From Aquisalinus luteolus (GTDB lineage: Bacteria; Pseudomonadota; Alphaproteobacteria; Caulobacterales; Parvularculaceae), in contig NZ_VCJR02000003.1 in the NCBI RefSeq assembly GCF_009712425.2, positions 62,001-126,000 on the forward strand: a stretch of DNA of 64,000 nt. Reading direction: 5' to 3'. Below, one piece after another: positions 49,089 to 59,824 of the stretch. Made by a program: the position numbers and the translations under genes. The notes under the pieces are model-generated. The model saw nothing but the letters and a program-made list of their open reading frames with translations, was not told where the DNA came from and searched no databases. Numbering within the stretch: position 1 is the first letter of the stretch; the number at the start of each line of letters is the position of its first letter.

Positions 49089-52000
49089 CTACTCTGCAGC
49101 CGTACGGGTGGCGTCAGGTGACTGCTGACGATTTTCCCGAGTATCCCCGTCATCCGGCTTTGTTGACCGGGTCTGATATTTTTCCGTCTTGCGCTTAGCG
49201 ATGCCGAAGGCTTTCTTGATCCGGGCCGAGAAGACTTTGGGGGCAGCCAGAAGGACAGGAGTCAGGATCAACGTCAGCAGCGTGGAGAAGGCAAGGCCGA
49301 AGACGATGGCAGAGGACAGCAGCACCCACCAGCCGGACGTTGCCGAGCCGATGCCGATCTGACCGGCGGTGAAATTCACGTTGATCTCGAACACCATCGG
49401 CAATAGGCCCATAATCGTCGTCGAGGTCGTCAGCAGCACCGGTCGCAGGCGCTGGGCGGCCGTGCGGATCACCGCATCTTCCACCGACAGGCCGGTATTG
49501 CGCAGGAAGTGATAGGTGTCGATCAGCACGATATTGTTGTTCACGACAATGCCCGCCAGCGCGACGATGCCGACGCCGGTCATGATCACCGAAATATACT
49601 GCCCGGACAAGGCGATGCCGAGCAATACACCGTAGACGGACAGGATGACGGCGGAGAGCGTCAGCGCAGCATGGTAGAAATTGTTGAACTGCAGCATCAG
49701 GATGACGCCGATCATGAACATCGCCGACAGCATGGCGGTCAGGAAGAAGCCTGCCGCCTCGTTGCGGCTCTCGCTCGCCCCACGAAGGCGCCATGAAACG
49801 GACGGGCTGACTTGTTCGGCCAGCACGCCGGTCTCAAGCCAGGCACGCATTTTTTCGATGGCGACATCCTGGCTGACTTCATAGCCCTCGACCGTCGTGT
49901 TGCCATTGGCCTTGATGTCCATCACCCGGTTGCCGTCGCGGCGGGTGACGCGGTCGACCTGCTGCTGCGGCACGATCTGCACGAAATTGGAGATCGGCAG
50001 CGGGCCGTCGCGGGTCTGGATGTTCAGATTCTGCAACGCTGTGACCGTGCGCTCGTCGGCAGGGAAGCGGACGCGGATATCGATCTCGTCATCGCTGTCA
50101 TCCGGGCGATAGGTATCGATCAGCAGGCCATCGGTGACGAGCTGGATCATCGAGCCGATCTCGCCAAGCGATACGCCGAAGCGCCCGGCCTGCTCGCGGT
50201 CGACCACGGCGACAAGTTCCGTCCCCGGCAAGGGCTGGTTGTCCTCGATATCCATATAGGTCGGCACTTCATGGCCGTTGACGACGGTGGTGCTCTCTTC
50301 CATGAACTGGCGCACCAGAACGGCAGCCTCTCGGGCGAGCGTGAAATTGCTGGCGGTCAGCTCGACCTGTGTGTCCTTGCCCTGTGGCGGGCCCTGTTCA
50401 GGCTGGCGCACCTCCAGCACGATACCGGGAAGGCCGGCGGTGCGTTCGCGCAAATCCTCCAGCACTTCGCGGGAGTGCTTGCGCTCCTCATACGGATAAA
50501 GGTCGATGTTCAGCTGGGCGATGGTCTCCGGCGGCGCCGTCGGGTCACGCGAAAGGGCCGGGCCGGTCTGGGTATAGATGCTTTCGATCGCCGGATGATC
50601 CTCGACCAGCCCGCGCACTTCCTCGGCGATGGCGAGTTTGTCTTCTTCAGACAGGTTCCCGCGGCCCTGCACGATGACCAGTACCTGCTCATCATCATTG
50701 CGGATGAAATATTCGACATCGGGCGATGCGACGGAGAAGGTGAGGTTGCACACGGCGATGATGATGGCGGCATAACCCAGAACCAGCACGGGCTTGTCGG
50801 TCAGCCACGCGATAAGCCTTGCATAGGCACCCGTCATGCCCCCCAGCGTGCGCGGATCAACATTGTCGAGGTCGACGCGTGTTTCCTCGCTGTCCGTCTT
50901 GCCCTGAATGCCGAGGCGGCGTTTCAGCTTTTCCGGCAGGCCGAAGCTGGCGCCAATGATCGGCAGGAAGATGAGCGCCACGAAAAGTGATGCAGACAGA
51001 ACGAAGATCAGTGTGATCGGGATGAATTTCATGAACTCGCCATCGAGCGAATTCCAGAACAGGAAGGGGATGAAGGCGGCAAGCGTCGTGCCGGTCGAGG
51101 CAACGATCGGCCAGAACATCCGCTTGGCCGCCTCGGCATAGGCTTCGCGGCGGCTGGCCCCCTCGATCATCCGGCGGTCGGCATATTCGACGATCACGAT
51201 GGCGCCGTCGACCAGCATGCCCACCGAGAGCACCATGGAGAACATGACCAGCATGTTCAGCGTGTAGCCATTCATCGACAGAAGGGCGAGGCCGATCAGG
51301 AAGGAGGAGGGGATAGCGATGCCGACCATGACCGCCGAACGGAAGCCCAGAGCGCCGACGACGATGATCATGACAAGCAGGATCGCGAGGATGATCGATG
51401 ATGTCAGCGACGACAGGATATCGCTGACGAAATAGGACTGGTCGCCGGTGAAGGCATAGTGGATAGTCTCCGGCCATTCCTGGGCGAGGCGTGCGGTCAC
51501 ATCCTTCACGGCCTGGCTGACTTCGACAATGTTCGCGCCGGAGCGTTTGGACACGTTCATGCCGATGGCAGGTTCGCCATTGAACAGGGCAAAGCCGTCA
51601 GGGTCCTCGAAGGTGCGGCGGATTTCGGCAATATCGCCCAGCGTCACGACGCTCTCGCCGTCAGTGCGTACCGGTATGTCCTGCGCATCCTCGACCGTCT
51701 TGATGAGGCCTGGCAGCTTGACCGAATAGCTGCCGTCGGAAAAGCGCAGCGAGCCGGCGGTGATCAGCGAGTTGTTGGCGCGGACAGCCTGTGCGACTTC
51801 CTGCTCCGAGAGGCCATAGGCCTCCATCACTTCGGGGTCGATGATGACTTCAAGCAGTTCCTCACGCGCACCGACCAGATCTGCCTCAAGAACGCCGGGT
51901 GTGGCGATCAGTGCGTCCTGCAGCTGCTTGGCGCTCTGGAACAGCGCGCGTTCCGGCGCGGTACCTGACAGGATGACGGAGATAACCGGAAACAGCTGCT

Positions 52001-52403
52001 GGGCGTTGAACTCCTGCACGATCGGTTCTTCCGCATCCGCCGGATATTCGGCACGGGCGCGGTCGACTGCCTCGCGCACATCGGCGAGGACATCATCCAT
52101 GTCGACGGTCGGCTCGAACTCCAGCCGGATCTGCGCGGCGCCCTCATAGGCGAGCGAGTCCATCTGGTCGAGACCTTCGATCGATTGAAGCTCAGCCTCT
52201 GTCGGCTTGACCAGCAGGCGTTCACCGTCTTCTGGCGAGACGCCGGGCAGGGGCAGCACCACCAGCGCGACAGGAATGGGAATATCCGGGTCGGCTTCAC
52301 GGGGCATGCTGACAAAGGCAGAAATGCCGAAAATCGTGAAGGCGACAAGAGCCAGCATGGCGACTTTCGAGCGCTGGAAGGCGGCATCGACGATATGCAT
52401 CAT
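49089..52403 (-). CDS. Efflux RND transporter permease (AcrB/CzcA superfamily)
   Basis: 1104 residues, about 12 membrane helices with two large periplasmic loops. It begins with the usual helix 1 (MLALVAFTIFGISAFVSMP) and PREADPDIPIP. The TM4 block is VDGAIVIVEYADRR, with a single Asp as in metal-type members rather than the DD of AcrB; TM10 has GIVVNNNIVLID. Substrate is not readable. GGGAGG six bases before the start. It follows its adaptor gene by 15 bases; no TolC-like gene is in the window. Confidence 0.93.
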   Translation of the reverse strand: MMHIVDAAFQRSKVAMLALVAFTIFGISAFVSMPREADPDIPIPVALVVLPLPGVSPEDGERLLVKPTEAELQSIEGLDQMDSLAYEGAAQIRLEFEPTVDMDDVLADVREAVDRARAEYPADAEEPIVQEFNAQQLFPVISVILSGTAPERALFQSAKQLQDALIATPGVLEADLVGAREELLEVIIDPEVMEAYGLSEQEVAQAVRANNSLITAGSLRFSDGSYSVKLPGLIKTVEDAQDIPVRTDGESVVTLGDIAEIRRTFEDPDGFALFNGEPAIGMNVSKRSGANIVEVSQAVKDVTARLAQEWPETIHYAFTGDQSYFVSDILSSLTSSIILAILLVMIIVVGALGFRSAVMVGIAIPSSFLIGLALLSMNGYTLNMLVMFSMVLSVGMLVDGAIVIVEYADRRMIEGASRREAYAEAAKRMFWPIVASTGTTLAAFIPFLFWNSLDGEFMKFIPITLIFVLSASLFVALIFLPIIGASFGLPEKLKRRLGIQGKTDSEETRVDLDNVDPRTLGGMTGAYARLIAWLTDKPVLVLGYAAIIIAVCNLTFSVASPDVEYFIRNDDEQVLVIVQGRGNLSEEDKLAIAEEVRGLVEDHPAIESIYTQTGPALSRDPTAPPETIAQLNIDLYPYEERKHSREVLEDLRERTAGLPGIVLEVRQPEQGPPQGKDTQVELTASNFTLAREAAVLVRQFMEESTTVVNGHEVPTYMDIEDNQPLPGTELVAVVDREQAGRFGVSLGEIGSMIQLVTDGLLIDTYRPDDSDDEIDIRVRFPADERTVTALQNLNIQTRDGPLPISNFVQIVPQQQVDRVTRRDGNRVMDIKANGNTTVEGYEVSQDVAIEKMRAWLETGVLAEQVSPSVSWRLRGASESRNEAAGFFLTAMLSAMFMIGVILMLQFNNFYHAALTLSAVILSVYGVLLGIALSGQYISVIMTGVGIVALAGIVVNNNIVLIDTYHFLRNTGLSVEDAVIRTAAQRLRPVLLTTSTTIMGLLPMVFEINVNFTAGQIGIGSATSGWWVLLSSAIVFGLAFSTLLTLILTPVLLAAPKVFSARIKKAFGIAKRKTEKYQTRSTKPDDGDTRENRQQSPDATRTAAE

Positions 52404-52418
52404 GATCTGCCTCCCTGC

Positions 52419-53540
52419 CTAGCCCGGCTGTTGTTCCGATTGCTGATAGGTTTCGCCCGGTGCAGCGATCTCTATTTCCTGACCGTCCCGGACATAGTTC
52501 TGGCCGCGCACGATGATTTCCTGCTCTCCGGACAGGCCGCTGACATAATAACCATCGGGAGAATCGCTGGTTATGGTAACGGGCCGGAACACGACCTCGC
52601 CTGTCCTGCCGCCTGTGCGCGTCACGCTGCGTATGCCGCTCTGACCCTGGTCGGAGGTGACGACTACATCATGGGGCAACAGCCATGCATCCGTGTCCCC
52701 GGTATCGATGAACACGGTGGCGGTCTGACCGGCGCGAATATTGCCGGGGTTCTCAGCTTCCAGCTCGACTGCATAGGTGCGGGTCGCGTCGCTGGCGGCA
52801 GCACCGACGAAGGTAACGCGGGCGGGGAATTCCTGCCCGGTCGCCAGCGTGACCTGCGCCATGTTGTTTTCGCGGATGCGGGCGATGTCTTTCTCCGGTA
52901 CAGCACCACGGATGCGGATCGGGTCGAGTTCGGCAAGGGTGGCGCAGGGGGCACCGACATTGAGGAAGTCGCCTGCCTCCGCCTGCTGTTCTTCAAGGAT
53001 GCCAGCGAAAGGCGCGCGAACCGAGGTCTTGCCGAGATCGGTGCGGGCGCGCTGCAGGGCTGCCTCTGCCTGGTCATAAACGGCCCTTGCTGATGCGACG
53101 CCAGCCTCAGATGCAAAGCCCTTCTCGGCCAGTTCCTGCGCGGCTTCATAATCGATCCGCGCTTTCTCGAAGGCGGCCCGGGCTTCTTCAACTGTAGCGC
53201 TGCGGGTTTCGACATCGATTTCGCACAGCACCTTGCCGCGCTCGACAAACTGACCTTCCGGTGACGGGGTAGAGCGAACCTGCCCCGCCGTCTCGGCCCG
53301 CACCACGACGAGGCGGCGGGCCTCGGTGCGGCCACGCATATCGACTTTTTCGGTGATGGTCTGGGGATCGACCGTCTCAGTCACCACCCGGAACAGGCGG
53401 GTTTCCTCCTCGGCAACTATCTCTTCACCGCCGGAACGCAGTAGCATGGAAAGGGCAAAATAGGCCACGACGCCTGCCGTAATCAGCAACGCCGTCTTGA
53501 CCGAGCCCGGGAGTGACCGCCAGCCTGCCATGTTTTCCAC
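52419..53540 (-). CDS. RND efflux periplasmic adaptor (membrane fusion protein)
   Basis: 373 residues. N-terminal membrane anchor (VKTALLITAGVVAYFALSMLL), then lipoyl/barrel-sandwich parts (RAETAGQVRSTPSPEGQFVERGKVLCEID in outline), a coiled coil (about 115-165), beta-barrel and MP domains. It links the pump to an outer-membrane channel. I chose GTG 53540 because AAGGA is five bases before it; GTG 53543 and ATG 53531 are alternatives differing by a few residues. Confidence 0.9.
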   Translation of the reverse strand: MENMAGWRSLPGSVKTALLITAGVVAYFALSMLLRSGGEEIVAEEETRLFRVVTETVDPQTITEKVDMRGRTEARRLVVVRAETAGQVRSTPSPEGQFVERGKVLCEIDVETRSATVEEARAAFEKARIDYEAAQELAEKGFASEAGVASARAVYDQAEAALQRARTDLGKTSVRAPFAGILEEQQAEAGDFLNVGAPCATLAELDPIRIRGAVPEKDIARIRENNMAQVTLATGQEFPARVTFVGAAASDATRTYAVELEAENPGNIRAGQTATVFIDTGDTDAWLLPHDVVVTSDQGQSGIRSVTRTGGRTGEVVFRPVTITSDSPDGYYVSGLSGEQEIIVRGQNYVRDGQEIEIAAPGETYQQSEQQPG

Positions 53541-53561
53541 CACTATCCTTGTCCTGCCTAA

Positions 53562-53711: not shown

Positions 53712-56528
53712 CTAACCGATCGCCCCGAAATAATGGCTGATCCCGTTGGTGATCCGCATCAGGAGACCGTAGGTTTCCTCCATCGGATCAACCATTTCCC
53801 GCTGCAACCTTGTATATTTGGGTTCGGCTGAATTGTCAGGATAGGTCGCGCTTTCCTTCAGGCTGAAATCCCCGATCCGCGGGGCATCCGTCGGGAAGAT
53901 CTCGTGCAGCAGGTCGGTCGCGGCGGGCACGTCGAGATGGAAGATCATCTCGATCACGTCCTGCTTGGAGTGGCCGGTCTGCGGCGAGAAGGTTGGCAGT
54001 TTGGCGACCATGATGAACAGGTGCTGGATCAGGGCAATACGCACGGCGTGAAGCACGTCGAGGGAAAGGGGCACTTCGGCCGTTTCGCTGCGCAGGCCCA
54101 TTTCCGTCAGCGCCTGGCCGAGGGAGATGGAGTCAGAGCGCAGGCGCGCTGCAAGCTGCAGGGCCGAGAAATAGCGGCCATCCGAGGCGAGCAGGGCGGC
54201 AAGCTCCGCGCAGGGCTTTTCAAGGTCATGCTCATTGCCCGACAGTGGACGGGTCGCCCAGAAGGAGCCGTCGAACAGCTTCATATAGGCGATCATGGTC
54301 TTGATTTCGCTGAGGGACTTGGCCTTTGCAACCAGCGTCATCAGCCTGTGGAACCGGTCGGAGCTGTCATTGAGCGAGACGAAATAGTCCTGCTCGGTCG
54401 ACAGAGCCTGGCCGACACCACCGATCAGGTTTGCCAGCAAGCCCATCTGCTGCAGGATCGCATTGTGCGGGATCGCGCGGATCTTGCGCAGGGACACGTC
54501 CTCGTCCGAGCGGCGCTCGAACTGGCGCTTGGCCTTGCGTGAGCCGGTAGTGGGCAGCAGTGACAGACCAAGGGCGGAGAGGGTGGTGTGATAGGCCTTG
54601 TCGGCGAACAGGTCCTCCTGGCGGCCTTTGACCGTGCGGTAGAAGTCGAGACTGGTTGCCGTGTCCTCATAGAACAGGTCTTCGGACTTCATCGCCTTCT
54701 CGGCCTGCAGATGTGCGTTGAGAAGGCCGTTGATGACGGCTTCAGCCAGCGGCTCGGACCCGAACAACACGTAGCCATCGCCGCCCTGGAAGCTCGATTC
54801 CTGGATCAGGTGGATGCCGCGCGAGGCAAACTCGTTGCGCGCCCAGGGAGAGAGCGCATACAGCGAGCGGTCGCTGAAGCTCTTCTGGTGGTTGCCACGG
54901 CCCATGGACTCGCCGTGGGTGTCGAAGACGATGGCATCGAGATGGCCAAGTCCGTGCTTGTCGATCAGTTGGGCGAAATGGCCCTGCAGCCGCTCGATGG
55001 CAAGCGTTGCGGGGATCTGTCCCATGAAGCGCCCGGCGTCGGAGAAGCCGGCCTGGATCGCCACACGGCCACGACCATTGGCATAGTCGCGATAGATTTC
55101 CTGCCCCAGCAGCACATCGAGGATGCGGCGGGAGCGGTCGAGGGCCTTGGCCGTCTCGAACAGCGGGCAGATATCGATCTTCTTGTCGACGCCGAACTGC
55201 TTGCCGAGATAGACGCAGGCAAGGACGGTGACCGGGTTTTCGCATTCGGCAATCAGCAGGCGGATCGGCTGGTCGGCATCGATATGCTTGACTATTTGCG
55301 CCATGGCGATGAGCAGCCGCGAGGCAGAGGATTTCTCGATCGCGAGCGAGGCGAAGTTGACATCCACCGGATCGGTCTTTTCGATCTCTTCCTGTACGCG
55401 CTCCAGCGCCCGACGGCCGAACAGGTCGTCGTCAGAAACGAGGTTCAGGATGTTGCGCGCGGCGTTGCGGATCTGCGAGGCGTTGAGGCGGAAATGGATC
55501 TCCCCGGCGCCGAGGCCGAAGCTCTTCATCGACGATTTCAGCGCGAGCAGCGGCAGGCAGTTGTCACCGGCAGCCTTGATCGCGTCATCCATCTGGGCGA
55601 GCAGCGGATCAATGCTGGTCAGACGGCCCGGGCCATCCTCTGTCAGGTGATCGGCCGCCGCTGCGAGCGTTTTCGGTGTCTCGTCATACATCGCCATCAG
55701 GGTGATGGCCTTCTCGGTGTGGTTACGGGCGGCGCCGACCGTCTCGGCGATGGCAGCAACGTCGAGGCCGTCCTTGGCCAGGGCGTCCAGTTCATCGGCA
55801 TACCAGTCGAGGCGGAAGTTCTTCTCGATCAGGCGGTGACGGATGACATCGTTCCAGCCGATATCGTTGCGGCCATCCATGTCATAGCCGACCCAGCTGG
55901 CGATCTTGACCGGCGTCGGCAACATCGTCTGCCACTGGTCGGGGAAGCGCTCGCGGGCTTCTTCAAGCACGATGCGGGTGAGGGTATTCAGCGCCTTTGT
56001 GCCATTCTTCATGGCGTCGAGAACAGCCCCGTGTTCATAGGCAAGGGTGATATCCGTATCCGGATGGTGAACCACATCGGTCAGGGAGGAGCGCAGGTCG
56101 AAATCCGGCTCCGTCGCAGCCTTGATCAGCAGCTCGCGTTGCTTGGCCGACAGGATGAAGGTCGGGTGCGCGGTAAAGACCGCGATGTCGCGGCACCGCT
56201 GCCAGTAGGCGGAGAATTCGTCTGCCGTCTTGAACCGGTCGGAGATCGTCTTGACCGTCTTCCTCAGGGCGACACCGCTTTCGCGCTGCTCGTCCATGCC
56301 GAGATAGTTGGACAGATAATCGGCACGCGAGGCGAAGGCATCGTCGCTCAGTGCCTTGACGAGACCTGACAGGTCCTCAAGGGAGATTTCGTTCTTCTCG
56401 ATCCGCACGGACAATTCGTGGGCCAGCTGGCGCACCGGGTTGGCGAGGGGGTCTTTCAGGATATGCGTGCGCAATTCCTCAAGGCGGCTTTTCAGGCTGG
56501 TTTCCAGGTCTGTCGTGCTGGTTGTCAT
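53712..56528 (-). CDS. ppc: Phosphoenolpyruvate carboxylase family protein, divergent
   Basis: 938 residues, the usual PEPC length, and homologous along its whole length: FTAHPTF (residues 118-124; usual TAHPTE), GYDMDGRND (214-222; usual GDRDGNP), GFSDAGR (494-500; usual GYSDSAKD), THGESMGRG (537-545; usual HGRGGSxGRGG) and RKIRAIPHN. His538 and the Arg of GRG are kept, but the flexible loop Lys is Arg and the first loop Arg is Glu. The C terminus ends in Gly, as PEPC does. It may be an active PEPC supplying oxaloacetate, or a relative with altered chemistry. A hairpin (CCCGTT/AACGGG) overlaps its ribosome site. Confidence 0.85.
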   Translation of the reverse strand: MTTSTTDLETSLKSRLEELRTHILKDPLANPVRQLAHELSVRIEKNEISLEDLSGLVKALSDDAFASRADYLSNYLGMDEQRESGVALRKTVKTISDRFKTADEFSAYWQRCRDIAVFTAHPTFILSAKQRELLIKAATEPDFDLRSSLTDVVHHPDTDITLAYEHGAVLDAMKNGTKALNTLTRIVLEEARERFPDQWQTMLPTPVKIASWVGYDMDGRNDIGWNDVIRHRLIEKNFRLDWYADELDALAKDGLDVAAIAETVGAARNHTEKAITLMAMYDETPKTLAAAADHLTEDGPGRLTSIDPLLAQMDDAIKAAGDNCLPLLALKSSMKSFGLGAGEIHFRLNASQIRNAARNILNLVSDDDLFGRRALERVQEEIEKTDPVDVNFASLAIEKSSASRLLIAMAQIVKHIDADQPIRLLIAECENPVTVLACVYLGKQFGVDKKIDICPLFETAKALDRSRRILDVLLGQEIYRDYANGRGRVAIQAGFSDAGRFMGQIPATLAIERLQGHFAQLIDKHGLGHLDAIVFDTHGESMGRGNHQKSFSDRSLYALSPWARNEFASRGIHLIQESSFQGGDGYVLFGSEPLAEAVINGLLNAHLQAEKAMKSEDLFYEDTATSLDFYRTVKGRQEDLFADKAYHTTLSALGLSLLPTTGSRKAKRQFERRSDEDVSLRKIRAIPHNAILQQMGLLANLIGGVGQALSTEQDYFVSLNDSSDRFHRLMTLVAKAKSLSEIKTMIAYMKLFDGSFWATRPLSGNEHDLEKPCAELAALLASDGRYFSALQLAARLRSDSISLGQALTEMGLRSETAEVPLSLDVLHAVRIALIQHLFIMVAKLPTFSPQTGHSKQDVIEMIFHLDVPAATDLLHEIFPTDAPRIGDFSLKESATYPDNSAEPKYTRLQREMVDPMEETYGLLMRITNGISHYFGAIG

Positions 56529-56606: not shown

Positions 56607-59600
56607 TCAGGCGGCGTTGATCTTCTTGTCCGCCTTTTTCTGCTCAATCCACGAGGAAATCATTTCCATCACGGCATCCTTGCGCACTGGCTTTGGCAGA
56701 TAGTCGTCCATGCCGGCAGCCCGGCAGCGTGCCTGGTCTTCCTGCATGGCATGGGCAGTAATGCCAATCACGGGAACGTGTTCGCCGCGTTGCTTCTGAA
56801 TCTGCTTGATCTGGCGGGTTGCCTCGAGGCCATCCATGACCGGCATGGAGACGTCCATCAGCACGAAATCGAAATCATGCTGCTGATAGATTTCGACGGC
56901 TTCGGCACCGTTATTGGCGATATGCAGGGTGCAGGCCATCGGTTCGAGCATGGCGCGCAGCACCATCTGGTTGACCAGATTGTCTTCTGCAATCAGGAAG
57001 TGGCAATCGGTGAAGCTCAGGGCAGCCTTTACCTTGGCCTCGGCGCCTCCGGTCTGGGCGCTATCCTGGCTCTTGTCGACGGGCAGGGTGATGGTGAAGG
57101 TGAAGGTCGAGCCGACACCGACGGCGCTTTCCACCGTGATGGTACCACCCAGATTTTCAGCGATCAGCTTGGAGATCGACAGCCCAAGCCCGGTGCCCTC
57201 ATGCTGGCGGGACGATGATCCGTCGACCTGCTCGAACTTGTTGAAGATGCGGTCGAGCTTGTCCGCCGGGATGCCGCAGCCGGAGTCCGTGACGGCAATG
57301 GTAAGGGTGGCCATGTCATCGCGTGCCTGCTGGCTGACGCGCACTTCGACCGTGCCTGTCTCAGTGAACTTGACGGCATTGCCGGCCAGGTTCGTGACGA
57401 CCTGGCGGATACGGCCGACATCGCCGATGAAGCGGCTGGAAATGTCTGTCTCGAATTCGAGATTCAGGTCGATGTCCTTGCCGGCGGCCTTCGGCGCCAG
57501 AATGTCGGCGACATCGCCAAGGGCGGCTTTAAGGTCAAAGCTTTCCTTGACGAAAGTCATTTTCCCGGCTTCGAGCTTGGAGAAGTCGAGAATATCGTTG
57601 ATGATCGTCAGCAGGCTGTCGGCGGACCGCATGACGACCCGGGTCATCTCTTCCTGTTCGTCGGAAAGGCCGGTTCCCATCAGGATTTCCGTCATGCCGA
57701 GAATGCCGTTCATCGGTGTGCGGATTTCGTGGGACATGTTCGCGAGAAATTCAGACTTGATACGGCTGGCTGCCTCAGCGGCTTCCTTCGACCGGCGCAA
57801 GTCGACGGAAAGCGCGCGCAGTTCTTCCTCGCGCTTGGCTTCCTTTGTGATATCCGTGTAAAGAATAACGTACCCGCCACCCTGTCTAGGATAGAAGTTC
57901 TCGCTGATATGCTGGCCGGATGTGTCGATGCGGTTAAGCCGCAGCGCTTCTCCGCGCTCCATCTTGTCAGCTATAGAGTTGGCTTTACTATTCTCTGTCG
58001 GGCGGTCGCGATAGAGCCCGAGGGAATGCGCCCGCATATAGATCTCTTTGGCATCACTGCCCAGCGCCCATTTCCCCGGTGGCAGGGCGATACCCTTCTT
58101 CTCGTTGACCATTGCGATCGTCAGATCGCTGTCGAGTACAACGAGGCTTTCGCCCATCGTGTCGAATATCTCCTGCAGCAGGTTACTCTTTTCCTGAAGT
58201 TCGCTCGTGCGCTGGTCGATGCGCTTTTCCAGTTCGCGATTGGCGATCGTCAGTTTTTCCTCGGCCCTTCGTGCTGCTTCGCGTGCCTCGTATTCGGAGG
58301 TTATCTCGCGTGTGTAGCCGCGATAGCCGCAAAACTCGCCATTGGCATCGAACATGGGTTTGCCGCTCAGGCTCAGGAAGCCGCCCTTGCCATCCTTCAT
58401 GACAAAGTCACGGAATGGTTCGTGCCGTGCTTTCAGGGCGAAATGGTCGTCCCAGCGCTGGCGTTCTTCTTCTGTCTGTGTGTTGACCTCCTTGAACGCC
58501 GACCCGGCTTGCTTGCCAATGAATGATTTCACCGACTTGCTCAGTTTGCGGACGCTGGATTCCGAGATATAGGTGAAACAGTCATTCGCATCGGTCTCCC
58601 AGAGGCGCTCAGCAGCATATTCTGCGAAATCACGGAACCTGGCTTCGCTCTCTTCCAGTGCACGCTGGCTCTCGATCTTCTGGGTGACATCAGACAACAA
58701 GCCTCGATATCCCGCGAATTCATCTGCGTGATTCCGCAGGGGCACACCGGAGAGGCTGATATAACGCTTGGCGCCGTCCGGGTGTGTTATCGCAAAGACA
58801 AGATCCCTGAACGCAGCGCGCTTTTTCAGTAAGTCGCCGGACATCTCGAGTGACTTGCGCGAGTACGGATCATCCTGATCGATAAGTGCCGCAAATTTTG
58901 TGCCGATCAGGCGCGACGGTTCACGACCGAGAATTTCGTGTGCGGTTTCCGCCAGTTGCGTGAGGCGAAGGCGTTCGTCAATTTCCCATGCCGTATCACG
59001 TGACATTTCCATGAAATCGCGCATCGCCGCGGCCATCCAGCCGCGTTGCAACGCGTTCTGGTCGGCCTCGTCGGTGATGGTCCTGATCAGCTTCAGGACA
59101 GTAGAGAACGTGCCCATACAAAGAAGCGACAGGACGATCATGGACAGGCCAAAAATCTGGGTGGTGATTTGGGGAGACCCAAGCAGTACAATGTTGGATG
59201 GTAGCAATAGACCCAGCATTGTCAGGCGTCCCGTTACAGGTAGCGAGCACATCGAGATGCCTGTTATCAGGGCCATCAGGGACATCCAGCCGGCGACCAT
59301 TACACCTATTTCGCTGCTGCTGGTGATAAACAGGATTGAACAGGCCGACATGAACGGTACGTTCAGCGCTGCGGATCGGCGAATATACTTTATGGTCTTC
59401 TGGACTTTTTCTTCGGAAAAAGCGCTCGGCACGGCCTTTTGCCAGTAGACAAAGCGCATGCCGGAAAACATGGTACCCGCAATCATCAGGACAGCCAGAA
59501 AATAATAGCCCAGATACAAGTTTAGCGTTGCGCCCATCAGCCCCGAGATGCCGAGGCAGGCAAACAGCATCGGTGACAGCTCTTTGAACACGACGACCTT

Positions 59601-59675
59601 CCGCAGGTCGCTTGTCGAAGAAGACACTGTCGCATCAGGCTGCCGTCTGAATAACGCTTCTATCTGGAATGGCAT
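56607..59675 (-). CDS. Membrane hybrid sensor histidine kinase with three PAS domains
   Basis: 1022 residues. About six N-terminal membrane helices (30-195), PAS 1 (about 225-335), PAS 2 with a GYRGYTREIT PAC end (about 355-470), a coiled coil (about 480-520), PAS 3 (about 520-640), HisKA with the phosphorylated His in NMSHEIRTPMNG, HATPase with DSGCGIP and GTGLGLSI, and a receiver domain with the acceptor Asp in FVLMDVSMPVMDG and the KPV lysine. It has no HPt domain and no adjacent response regulator, so phosphotransfer likely goes to a distant protein. ATG 59675 follows GAGGGACAA. It is upstream of ppc on the same strand. Confidence 0.93.
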   Translation of the reverse strand: MPFQIEALFRRQPDATVSSSTSDLRKVVVFKELSPMLFACLGISGLMGATLNLYLGYYFLAVLMIAGTMFSGMRFVYWQKAVPSAFSEEKVQKTIKYIRRSAALNVPFMSACSILFITSSSEIGVMVAGWMSLMALITGISMCSLPVTGRLTMLGLLLPSNIVLLGSPQITTQIFGLSMIVLSLLCMGTFSTVLKLIRTITDEADQNALQRGWMAAAMRDFMEMSRDTAWEIDERLRLTQLAETAHEILGREPSRLIGTKFAALIDQDDPYSRKSLEMSGDLLKKRAAFRDLVFAITHPDGAKRYISLSGVPLRNHADEFAGYRGLLSDVTQKIESQRALEESEARFRDFAEYAAERLWETDANDCFTYISESSVRKLSKSVKSFIGKQAGSAFKEVNTQTEEERQRWDDHFALKARHEPFRDFVMKDGKGGFLSLSGKPMFDANGEFCGYRGYTREITSEYEAREAARRAEEKLTIANRELEKRIDQRTSELQEKSNLLQEIFDTMGESLVVLDSDLTIAMVNEKKGIALPPGKWALGSDAKEIYMRAHSLGLYRDRPTENSKANSIADKMERGEALRLNRIDTSGQHISENFYPRQGGGYVILYTDITKEAKREEELRALSVDLRRSKEAAEAASRIKSEFLANMSHEIRTPMNGILGMTEILMGTGLSDEQEEMTRVVMRSADSLLTIINDILDFSKLEAGKMTFVKESFDLKAALGDVADILAPKAAGKDIDLNLEFETDISSRFIGDVGRIRQVVTNLAGNAVKFTETGTVEVRVSQQARDDMATLTIAVTDSGCGIPADKLDRIFNKFEQVDGSSSRQHEGTGLGLSISKLIAENLGGTITVESAVGVGSTFTFTITLPVDKSQDSAQTGGAEAKVKAALSFTDCHFLIAEDNLVNQMVLRAMLEPMACTLHIANNGAEAVEIYQQHDFDFVLMDVSMPVMDGLEATRQIKQIQKQRGEHVPVIGITAHAMQEDQARCRAAGMDDYLPKPVRKDAVMEMISSWIEQKKADKKINAA

Positions 59676-59824
59676 TTGTCCCTCACCTAAGCCGTCATGC
59701 ATAAGGGAAGGGTGTTAATTTCGGGTTTCCGGGCGCTTGGGGACGTTTTTGAACCGCTTCCGGCTTGCTTTGCGGACCAATTTTTAGCAGACAATCTCTC
59801 AAACTTCGCAAAAAAGAGTGAAAA

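Follow-up and report, generated by a model that had tools for sequence, protein, structure and literature searches.

A phosphoenolpyruvate carboxylase-like protein of Aquisalinus luteolus from a distinct alphaproteobacterial clade

Phosphoenolpyruvate carboxylase (PEPC) is a central CO2-fixing enzyme whose catalytic loops are well mapped. In this work, we describe a gene for a PEPC-like protein of 938 amino acids (aa), located on a 64,000-nucleotide stretch of contig NZ_VCJR02000003.1 of Aquisalinus luteolus; this whole stretch is referred to as the window. The gene is a member of a deeply divergent, apparently unstudied branch of PEPCs, and it is placed as follows:

53712..56528, minus strand: PEPC-like protein, 938 aa, assigned to a divergent alphaproteobacterial clade (open reading frame, Pfam, profile alignment and tree)

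In the available text of a 2020 review, PEPCs are divided into four types, namely bacterial, plant-type, plant bacterial-type and archaeal-type, the last having a mass of 55-60 kDa (PMC8100219). According to the accessible part of another source, the metal of the enzyme is held by one Glu and one Asp residue, and catalysis depends on a conserved His (PMC10176493). Methylosinus Ppc1, of the “non-regulated” serine-cycle group, is described, in the part of the report at hand, as carrying hydrophobic residues at the Lys and Asn sites of the E. coli enzyme (PMC3615186). The gene order of a serine-cycle cluster is given in the available text as MtkA-MtkB-Ppc1-Mcl (PMC5023235), and mutational analysis, as reported in the accessible part of the source, indicates that ppc, mtkAB and mcl of Methylobacterium are methylotrophy-specific (PMC2680597).

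Like E. coli Ppc (PF00311; structures 1FIY and 1JQN), the A. luteolus protein and its relatives, called here the clade, have a similar length, a barrel core, the catalytic residues and a terminal Gly. They differ from it in overall identity (about 17% for the 938-aa protein), in the exchanges E141F, K546R, R581H, H579D/N and N256R, and in the loss of Lys773 and Asn881. With the serine-cycle PEPCs of Methylosinus Ppc1 type (L063 of genome G283 and L064 of genome G211), the clade shares the position after an mtkA-mtkB or mtkA-mtkB-like pair in some genomes and the replacement of the inhibitor-site Lys and Asn; unlike the clade, these enzymes keep Glu141, Lys546, His579 and Arg581 and fall among the canonical PEPCs in the tree. 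Archaeal-type PEPC (PF14010; structure 3ODM) carries out the same reaction as is proposed for the clade enzyme, and it differs from the clade protein in size, as the masses given above indicate. The barrel overlap with 3ODM (Z 9.9 over 210 residues) lies in the range of unrelated barrels.

The protein, its clade and its active site

The reading frame begins with ATG and is open throughout its 938 codons. Between this gene and that of Aquisalinus flavus the nonsynonymous divergence (dN) is 0.035 and the synonymous divergence (dS) 0.60 (NG86), which indicates purifying selection; a pseudogene is ruled out by the open frame and by dN far below dS. Identity of the protein is 93% to A. flavus, 62% to a metagenome-assembled genome (MAG) of the Parvularculaceae and 54% to Parvularcula dongshanensis. 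A promoter scan gave 0 promoter-like sites where 1.0 was expected, and a terminator scan gave 3 terminator-like sites where 2.4 were expected.

The only Pfam family that matches the protein at E up to 1 is PF00311 (PEPcase), with 68.8 bits in two stretches against a gathering cut-off of 22.4; the archaeal-type family PF14010 gave no match within the same limit. With the NCBIfam PEPC equivalog NF000584 the protein reached 77.6 bits against a cut-off of 815, and all six clade members scanned scored 63-78 bits. As controls, a canonical PEPC (L037) scored 1210.3 bits and the serine-cycle-type L063 753.8 bits, the latter also below the cut-off. The protein is assigned to the PEPcase superfamily, outside the canonical equivalog. 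The full-length PEPC homology claimed in the initial annotation holds for profiles, as hhalign in global mode aligned 774 columns at 18% identity with an E of 6.7e-38 (the canonical profile behind these figures includes two rows, L038 and L044, read on the wrong strand); it does not hold for single sequences, whose matches to solved PEPCs cover residues 205-546 at most.

A weak AlphaFold2 model (pLDDT 49.9, pTM 0.48), run on four sequences only, was compared with known structures. Over residues of about 76-604, 23 PEPC entries were matched, with Z values of 15.1-21.7; for 21 entries Z was at least 20, with a root-mean-square deviation (rmsd) of 4.5-5.3 over 414-458 residues. The best match of this low-confidence part (Z 21.7, rmsd 4.6, 451 residues) points to a PEPC fold. 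The next family after the PEPCs was that of pyruvate kinases, at Z 10.4, and PEPCs likewise ranked first in a Foldseek search.

In a tree of 54 clade and 29 canonical sequences, obtained by a quick LG+G4 search and lacking an outside root, the two sets are parted by one branch with an SH-aLRT of 100. This phylogeny lends good support to the distinct PEPC clade that had been proposed from the window sequence. Mean identity in the 85-row alignment is 38% within the clade, 45% within the canonical set and 17% between them. The canonical set consists of 29 of 31 rows, E. coli included, after removal of L051 (internal stop) and L052 (truncated). The 54 clade rows come from 41 of 45 class genomes, three named loci, six members of the phylum sample and four plasmid copies; the clade genomes G045, G077, G249 and G276, and also G421 and G537, stand outside the alignment.

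The distribution of the clade was followed at several levels. In the class sample, the protein has a match in 49 of 289 genomes (E up to 1e-5); in 45 the match belongs to the divergent family, and the other four genomes (G051, G087, G280 and G207), with weak matches of 25-34 bits to canonical PEPC, were taken out. Of 60 genomes sampled from the order, 27 have a match, with 11/13 in the window's own family (f1), 11/12 in f3, 0/12 in f2, 2/12 in f160 and 3/11 in f215. The phylum sample gave 25 matches among 299 genomes at E up to 1e-10; 17 of these are clade members from the same class, and the remaining eight (41-53 bits) resemble canonical PEPC by score. Copies in plasmid records were found in Phyllobacterium, Sphingobium, Methylobacterium bullatum and Burkholderia pyrrocinia, the last outside the class. 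Among the viral contigs scanned for relatives, none was found. Two more PF00311 proteins, L140 (G010:C17:15227-17341) and L141 (G110:C2:25198-27009), with frames of 1164 and 1062 codons and scores of 85-90 bits, share on average 16% identity with the clade and 18% with canonical PEPC and are placed stably with neither; they may represent another divergent PEPC type.

The segments of the gene that correspond to the active site and the inhibitor site are listed below, with E. coli residues given as counterparts and with counts among the 54 clade rows:

56157..56174, minus strand: TAHPTF, residues 119-124; His121 corresponds to His138 (His 54/54), and Phe124 replaces Glu141 (Phe 54/54)
55869..55895, minus strand: WVGYDMDGR, residues 212-220, WMGGDRDGN in E. 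coli; Arg253 lost and Arg gained at Asn256
55488..55490, minus strand: Arg347, corresponding to Arg396 (54/54)
55152..55166, minus strand: PLFET, residues 455-459; Glu458 corresponds to Glu506, presumed metal ligand (54/54)
55029..55049, minus strand: GFSDAGR, residues 494-500; Asp497 corresponds to Asp543, presumed metal ligand, and Arg500 replaces Lys546 (54/54)
54894..54926, minus strand: FDTHGESMGRG, residues 535-545; Asp536 at His579, His538 at Arg581, Arg544 corresponding to Arg587
54468..54545, minus strand: GSRKAKR...RAIP, residues 662-687; Arg664, Arg668 and Arg684 correspond to Arg699, Arg703 and Arg713 (54/54)
53715..53723, minus strand: C-terminal Ala-Ile-Gly; terminal Gly as in Ppc (54/54), Ala at Asn881

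His138, Arg396, Glu506, Asp543, Arg587, Arg699, Arg703, Arg713 and Gly883 (E. coli numbering) are kept in all 54 clade rows. Equally fixed are the exchanges of Glu141 for Phe, Lys546 for Arg and Arg581 for His, and the position of His579 is occupied by Asp in 36 rows, Asn in 17 and Ser in one. Arg stands at the Asn256 position in 54/54 clade and 0/29 canonical rows, and Arg253 is present in 0/54 as against 29/29. These six changed positions are each conserved in 28-29 of the 29 canonical rows. In the form of motifs, G[FY]SD[AS]GR and THG[ED]x-GRG occur in 54/54 clade and 0/29 canonical rows, GYSDSxKD and HGRGGxxxRG in 0/54 and 29/29, and TAHPTE in 0/54 and 28/29; TAHPTF as a whole is found in 47 of the 54 clade rows. 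The replacement of canonical motifs by TAHPTF, GFSDAGR and THGESMGRG, pointed out in the initial annotation, was thus confirmed, and chance variation of the motifs is ruled out by their fixation in the clade and absence from the canonical rows. In profile alignments FDTHGESMGRG aligns without gaps with FHGRGGSIGRG, so that the loop is not shortened, His falls on Arg581 and Asp or Asn on His579. Such loop changes suggest a rebuilt phosphate/bicarbonate pocket. By tree and motifs, the clade is to be placed outside the canonical bacterial set tested here.

The inhibitor site is changed as well. Lys773 is lost in 53 of the 54 clade rows and kept in one, and the third residue from the C-terminus, at the Asn881 position, is Ala in 41 rows, Phe in eight, Ser in four and Thr in one, as compared with Asn in 26/29 canonical rows. 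For the Arg832 position, two alignments place the clade residues differently. Because Lys773 and Asn881 are gone, feedback inhibition by aspartate and malate is probably weak or absent. The first reading of the sequence had suggested a changed activity or regulation, and a change in regulation is plausible on these grounds; a changed reaction is not favoured, because the core residues show no variation, this gene and canonical PEPC replace each other across genomes and in operon position, and the window genome yielded no second PEPC and no pyruvate carboxylase (PYC) or phosphoenolpyruvate carboxykinase (PEPCK).

Genome content and gene neighbourhoods of clade members

In the genome of A. luteolus, matches to PF00311 are confined to the gene at 53712-56528. 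No PYC over the cut-off was found in it, the matches being limited to biotin-carboxylase, carrier-like and weak ones; PF02436 (PYC_OADA) had no match there, and neither ATP- nor GTP-dependent PEPCK had a match over the cut-off. A pyruvate phosphate dikinase, able to make phosphoenolpyruvate (PEP), is present with 1407 bits.

Among the 289 class genomes, 45 carry the clade gene, 31 canonical PEPC and 44 PYC, the last counted as PF02436 at a score of at least 184 bits, with 16 genomes with weaker OadA-like matches (35-112 bits) left out. The six genomes G010, G046, G110, G144, G163 and G171, in which the PF00311 match is weak or broken, were counted neither as clade nor as canonical. The clade gene occurs together with canonical PEPC or PYC in 2/45 genomes, as compared with 11.4 expected (Fisher p 1e-4, kinship uncorrected); canonical PEPC and PYC occur together in 2/289. 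Families f15, f18, f54 and f97 are mixed, with the clade gene in some genomes, canonical PEPC in others and both in no sampled genome; one f54 genome (G051) has canonical PEPC together with PYC. It seems that the clade enzyme stands in for ordinary PEPC in many alphaproteobacteria.

The surroundings of the clade gene were examined in 56 regions with 17 probe proteins, picked from contexts already seen, and the linkage counts are thus descriptive. In 4/5 genomes of family f15, zwf-edd-glk precedes the clade gene, and eda follows glk in three (NCBIfam families). The f15 genomes are probably sphingomonad, because their proteins group with the Sphingobium plasmid protein in a tree; this tree, which also shows the near identity of the G283 and M. 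bullatum clade proteins, includes the wrong-strand canonical rows L038 and L044. A sucC/mtkA-sucD/mtkB pair lies before the clade gene in 3/3 genomes of family f40 and in Phyllobacterium. The f40 genomes hold a second, higher scoring SucC elsewhere (584-597 bits), which makes the linked pair an additional copy. The canonical PEPCs of G283 and G211 are located directly after malate-CoA-ligase genes, which score 760 and 724 bits against a curated cut-off of 604; this order agrees with that of the serine-cycle cluster (PMC5023235). Two SucC matches, G000:C4:21719-22912 and G183:C1:1410488-1411684, contain one internal stop each (TAA and TGA), and these may be cases of a match merely running past the stop.

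The plasmid copies are found in varied contexts. On a Phyllobacterium zundukense plasmid (L079, 140-12820), the sucC-sucD/mtkAB-like pair and the clade PEPC adjoin an oxalate cluster with frc, a thiamine-pyrophosphate enzyme and oxlT, and this region is possibly a plasmid-borne oxalate assimilation module. A Sphingobium plasmid operon (L080, 5385-12760) comprises genes for a 2-hydroxyacid dehydrogenase, an APH-family kinase, enolase, an FAH-family protein and the clade PEPC, the last annotated as hypothetical in its record. The enolase, encoded two genes upstream of the PEPC, scores 523.5 bits against the eno equivalog cut-off of 300, and the operon is a possible glycerate-to-oxaloacetate route. 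On a plasmid of Burkholderia pyrrocinia, a betaproteobacterium holding a copy of the otherwise alphaproteobacterial clade, a gene for an RraA-family protein, the clade PEPC and a 2-hydroxyacid dehydrogenase lie downstream of 5-oxoprolinase genes (L081, 9290-13849).

Proposed function and alternative explanations

We consider it likely that the protein, a member of a separate clade, is an active PEPC with an anaplerotic role, and that aspartate and malate probably do not affect it. This explanation is preferred because the catalytic residues are kept, the gene is under purifying selection, clade gene and canonical PEPC alternate from genome to genome and in their place within operons, and further PEPC, PYC or PEPCK matches over the cut-off are missing from the window genome; the proposed activity, single-residue roles, regulation and physiological role are drawn from homology, clade membership, residue conservation, genome content and operons. 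The enzyme would convert PEP and bicarbonate to oxaloacetate and phosphate and would be the main oxaloacetate-forming carboxylase of this genome. Its barrel core would function like that of E. coli Ppc: Glu458 and Asp497 would hold the metal, Arg347, Arg664 and Arg684 the PEP, and Arg544 and His121 would handle bicarbonate and carboxyphosphate; here, the numbers Glu506 and Asp543 are those we take to be the metal ligands of the E. coli enzyme, and the roles of Arg396, Arg587, Arg699 and Arg713 are assumed as well. In the glycine-rich and GFSD loops the charges would be rearranged, with Lys546 replaced by Arg, Arg581 by His, Arg placed at Asn256 and Arg253 lost, and the loss of Lys773 and Asn881 would leave little or no aspartate/malate feedback.

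Several observations weigh against this reading. We know of no assay of any clade member. Glu141, Lys546, His579 and Arg581, identical in 29/29 canonical rows, are all replaced in the clade, and the structural model is poor, so that statements on the active site are based on sequence alignment. The link to zwf-edd-glk or sucCD/mtkAB was found in only 8/56 regions; it was absent from the other 48 and from 16/16 further regions of the order. The f40 SucC beside the clade gene scores 551-555 bits, under the malate-CoA-ligase cut-off of 604, and the f40 pairs may not be malate thiokinases; G148, with a third serine-cycle-type PEPC, has no mtkAB match in its region. The co-occurrence pattern has exceptions in G283 (clade and canonical PEPC; family f72) and G257 (clade and PYC), and the clade genome G244 also holds a weaker OadA-like PF02436 match, not counted as PYC. 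An isocitrate-lyase-like gene is present in the window genome. Furthermore, 173/289 genomes have neither clade PEPC, canonical PEPC nor PYC by the thresholds used, and thus lacking the others does not prove a need for the clade enzyme.

The exception G283 has the clade gene, a serine-cycle-type PEPC and no PYC match; M. bullatum carries an almost identical clade protein. As the serine-cycle ppc of Methylobacterium is methylotrophy-specific, the anaplerotic role could fall to the clade enzyme in carriers of this kind, and G283 may use it on multicarbon substrates.

A PEPC-fold enzyme with another substrate or product, which might, for example, carboxylate a different phospho-enol acid or hydrolyse PEP in a bicarbonate-dependent manner, would fit the clade-wide replacement of Glu141, Lys546, His579 and Arg581, the new Arg at Asn256, and the accessory, catabolic-looking operons of the Sphingobium and Burkholderia plasmid members, each with a 2-hydroxyacid dehydrogenase. 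We regard it as rather unlikely, as all 54 rows retain the metal ligands, His138, Arg587 and the PEP arginines, the Sphingobium enolase points to PEP, and the position after mtkA-mtkB that is common with canonical PEPC, together with the low co-occurrence, favours the ordinary reaction. The clade could also be an ordinary PEPC group already characterized under another name, its motifs being those of a known active clade, and RefSeq indeed calls the Phyllobacterium and Burkholderia homologues phosphoenolpyruvate carboxylase. However, the solved structures that match the clade profile best are plant and E. coli PEPCs at no more than 74 bits, the clade is absent from the four types in the available text of the review (PMC8100219), and no description of it, or of its motifs as those of an active clade, was found in the open-access literature (most subscription papers, which may hold one, were outside the search); this makes such an identity very unlikely. 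Least probable, in our opinion, is a PEPC relative with little or no catalytic activity that serves a regulatory function linked to the adjacent hybrid kinase. The changed loops would agree with it, and a full-length kinase match lies directly upstream of the gene in the window, in A. flavus (L033) and in one MAG (L034), with a PAS protein upstream in L159. Nevertheless, no full-length kinase match was found beside the gene in the other 53/56 regions or in 16 further regions of the order, the catalytic residues are invariant, the gene stands in glycolytic operons elsewhere, and the search of the window genome for another PEPC, a PYC or a PEPCK gave nothing over the cut-off.

If the protein is an active anaplerotic PEPC, a clade with changed loop residues in the place of PEPC would reveal which of these residues the enzyme cannot do without, and it could be a possible source of feedback-resistant PEPC for engineering. 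It would also correct metabolic models in which such bacteria are scored as lacking PEPC or the gene stays hypothetical, as it does in a Sphingobium record. More tentatively, the clade may represent a separate way to build a PEPC, with a re-drawn pocket (R581H, K546R, N256R and E141F), no aspartate/malate control and a role as the main anaplerotic CO2-fixing enzyme in a sizeable share of alphaproteobacterial lineages (45/289 genomes carry it), some accessory copies perhaps having turned to related phospho-enol substrates; this wider proposal is possible, and we would not call it probable.

Adjacent genes in the window

The following neighbours are not regarded as part of the function:

56607..59702, minus strand: PAS hybrid histidine kinase/response regulator, directly upstream (Pfam)
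52419..53543, minus strand: resistance-nodulation-division (RND) periplasmic adaptor, downstream (Pfam and NCBIfam)
49089..52403, minus strand: RND (AcrB family) permease, further downstream (Pfam and NCBIfam)

The adjacency to a membrane hybrid kinase, noted previously for this locus, is real; a functional unit of kinase and PEPC was rejected, since only close relatives retain the pairing. In L097, L126 and L159, partial kinase matches (22-32%) are found no more than about 1 kb from the gene. Those of L097 and L126 (29-32%) involve the kinase domain and are as expected of common kinase domains. In L159, of the window's family, the upstream gene matches the N-terminal half of the kinase at 22% and has a PAS domain and no Pfam kinase match. 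In two more family members the upstream gene encodes an M13 peptidase (L160) and an outer-membrane efflux protein (L035). Both RND genes, for adaptor and permease (49089-53543), are kept further than the kinase, namely in A. flavus, the MAG and the more distant relatives L159 and L160 of the same family.

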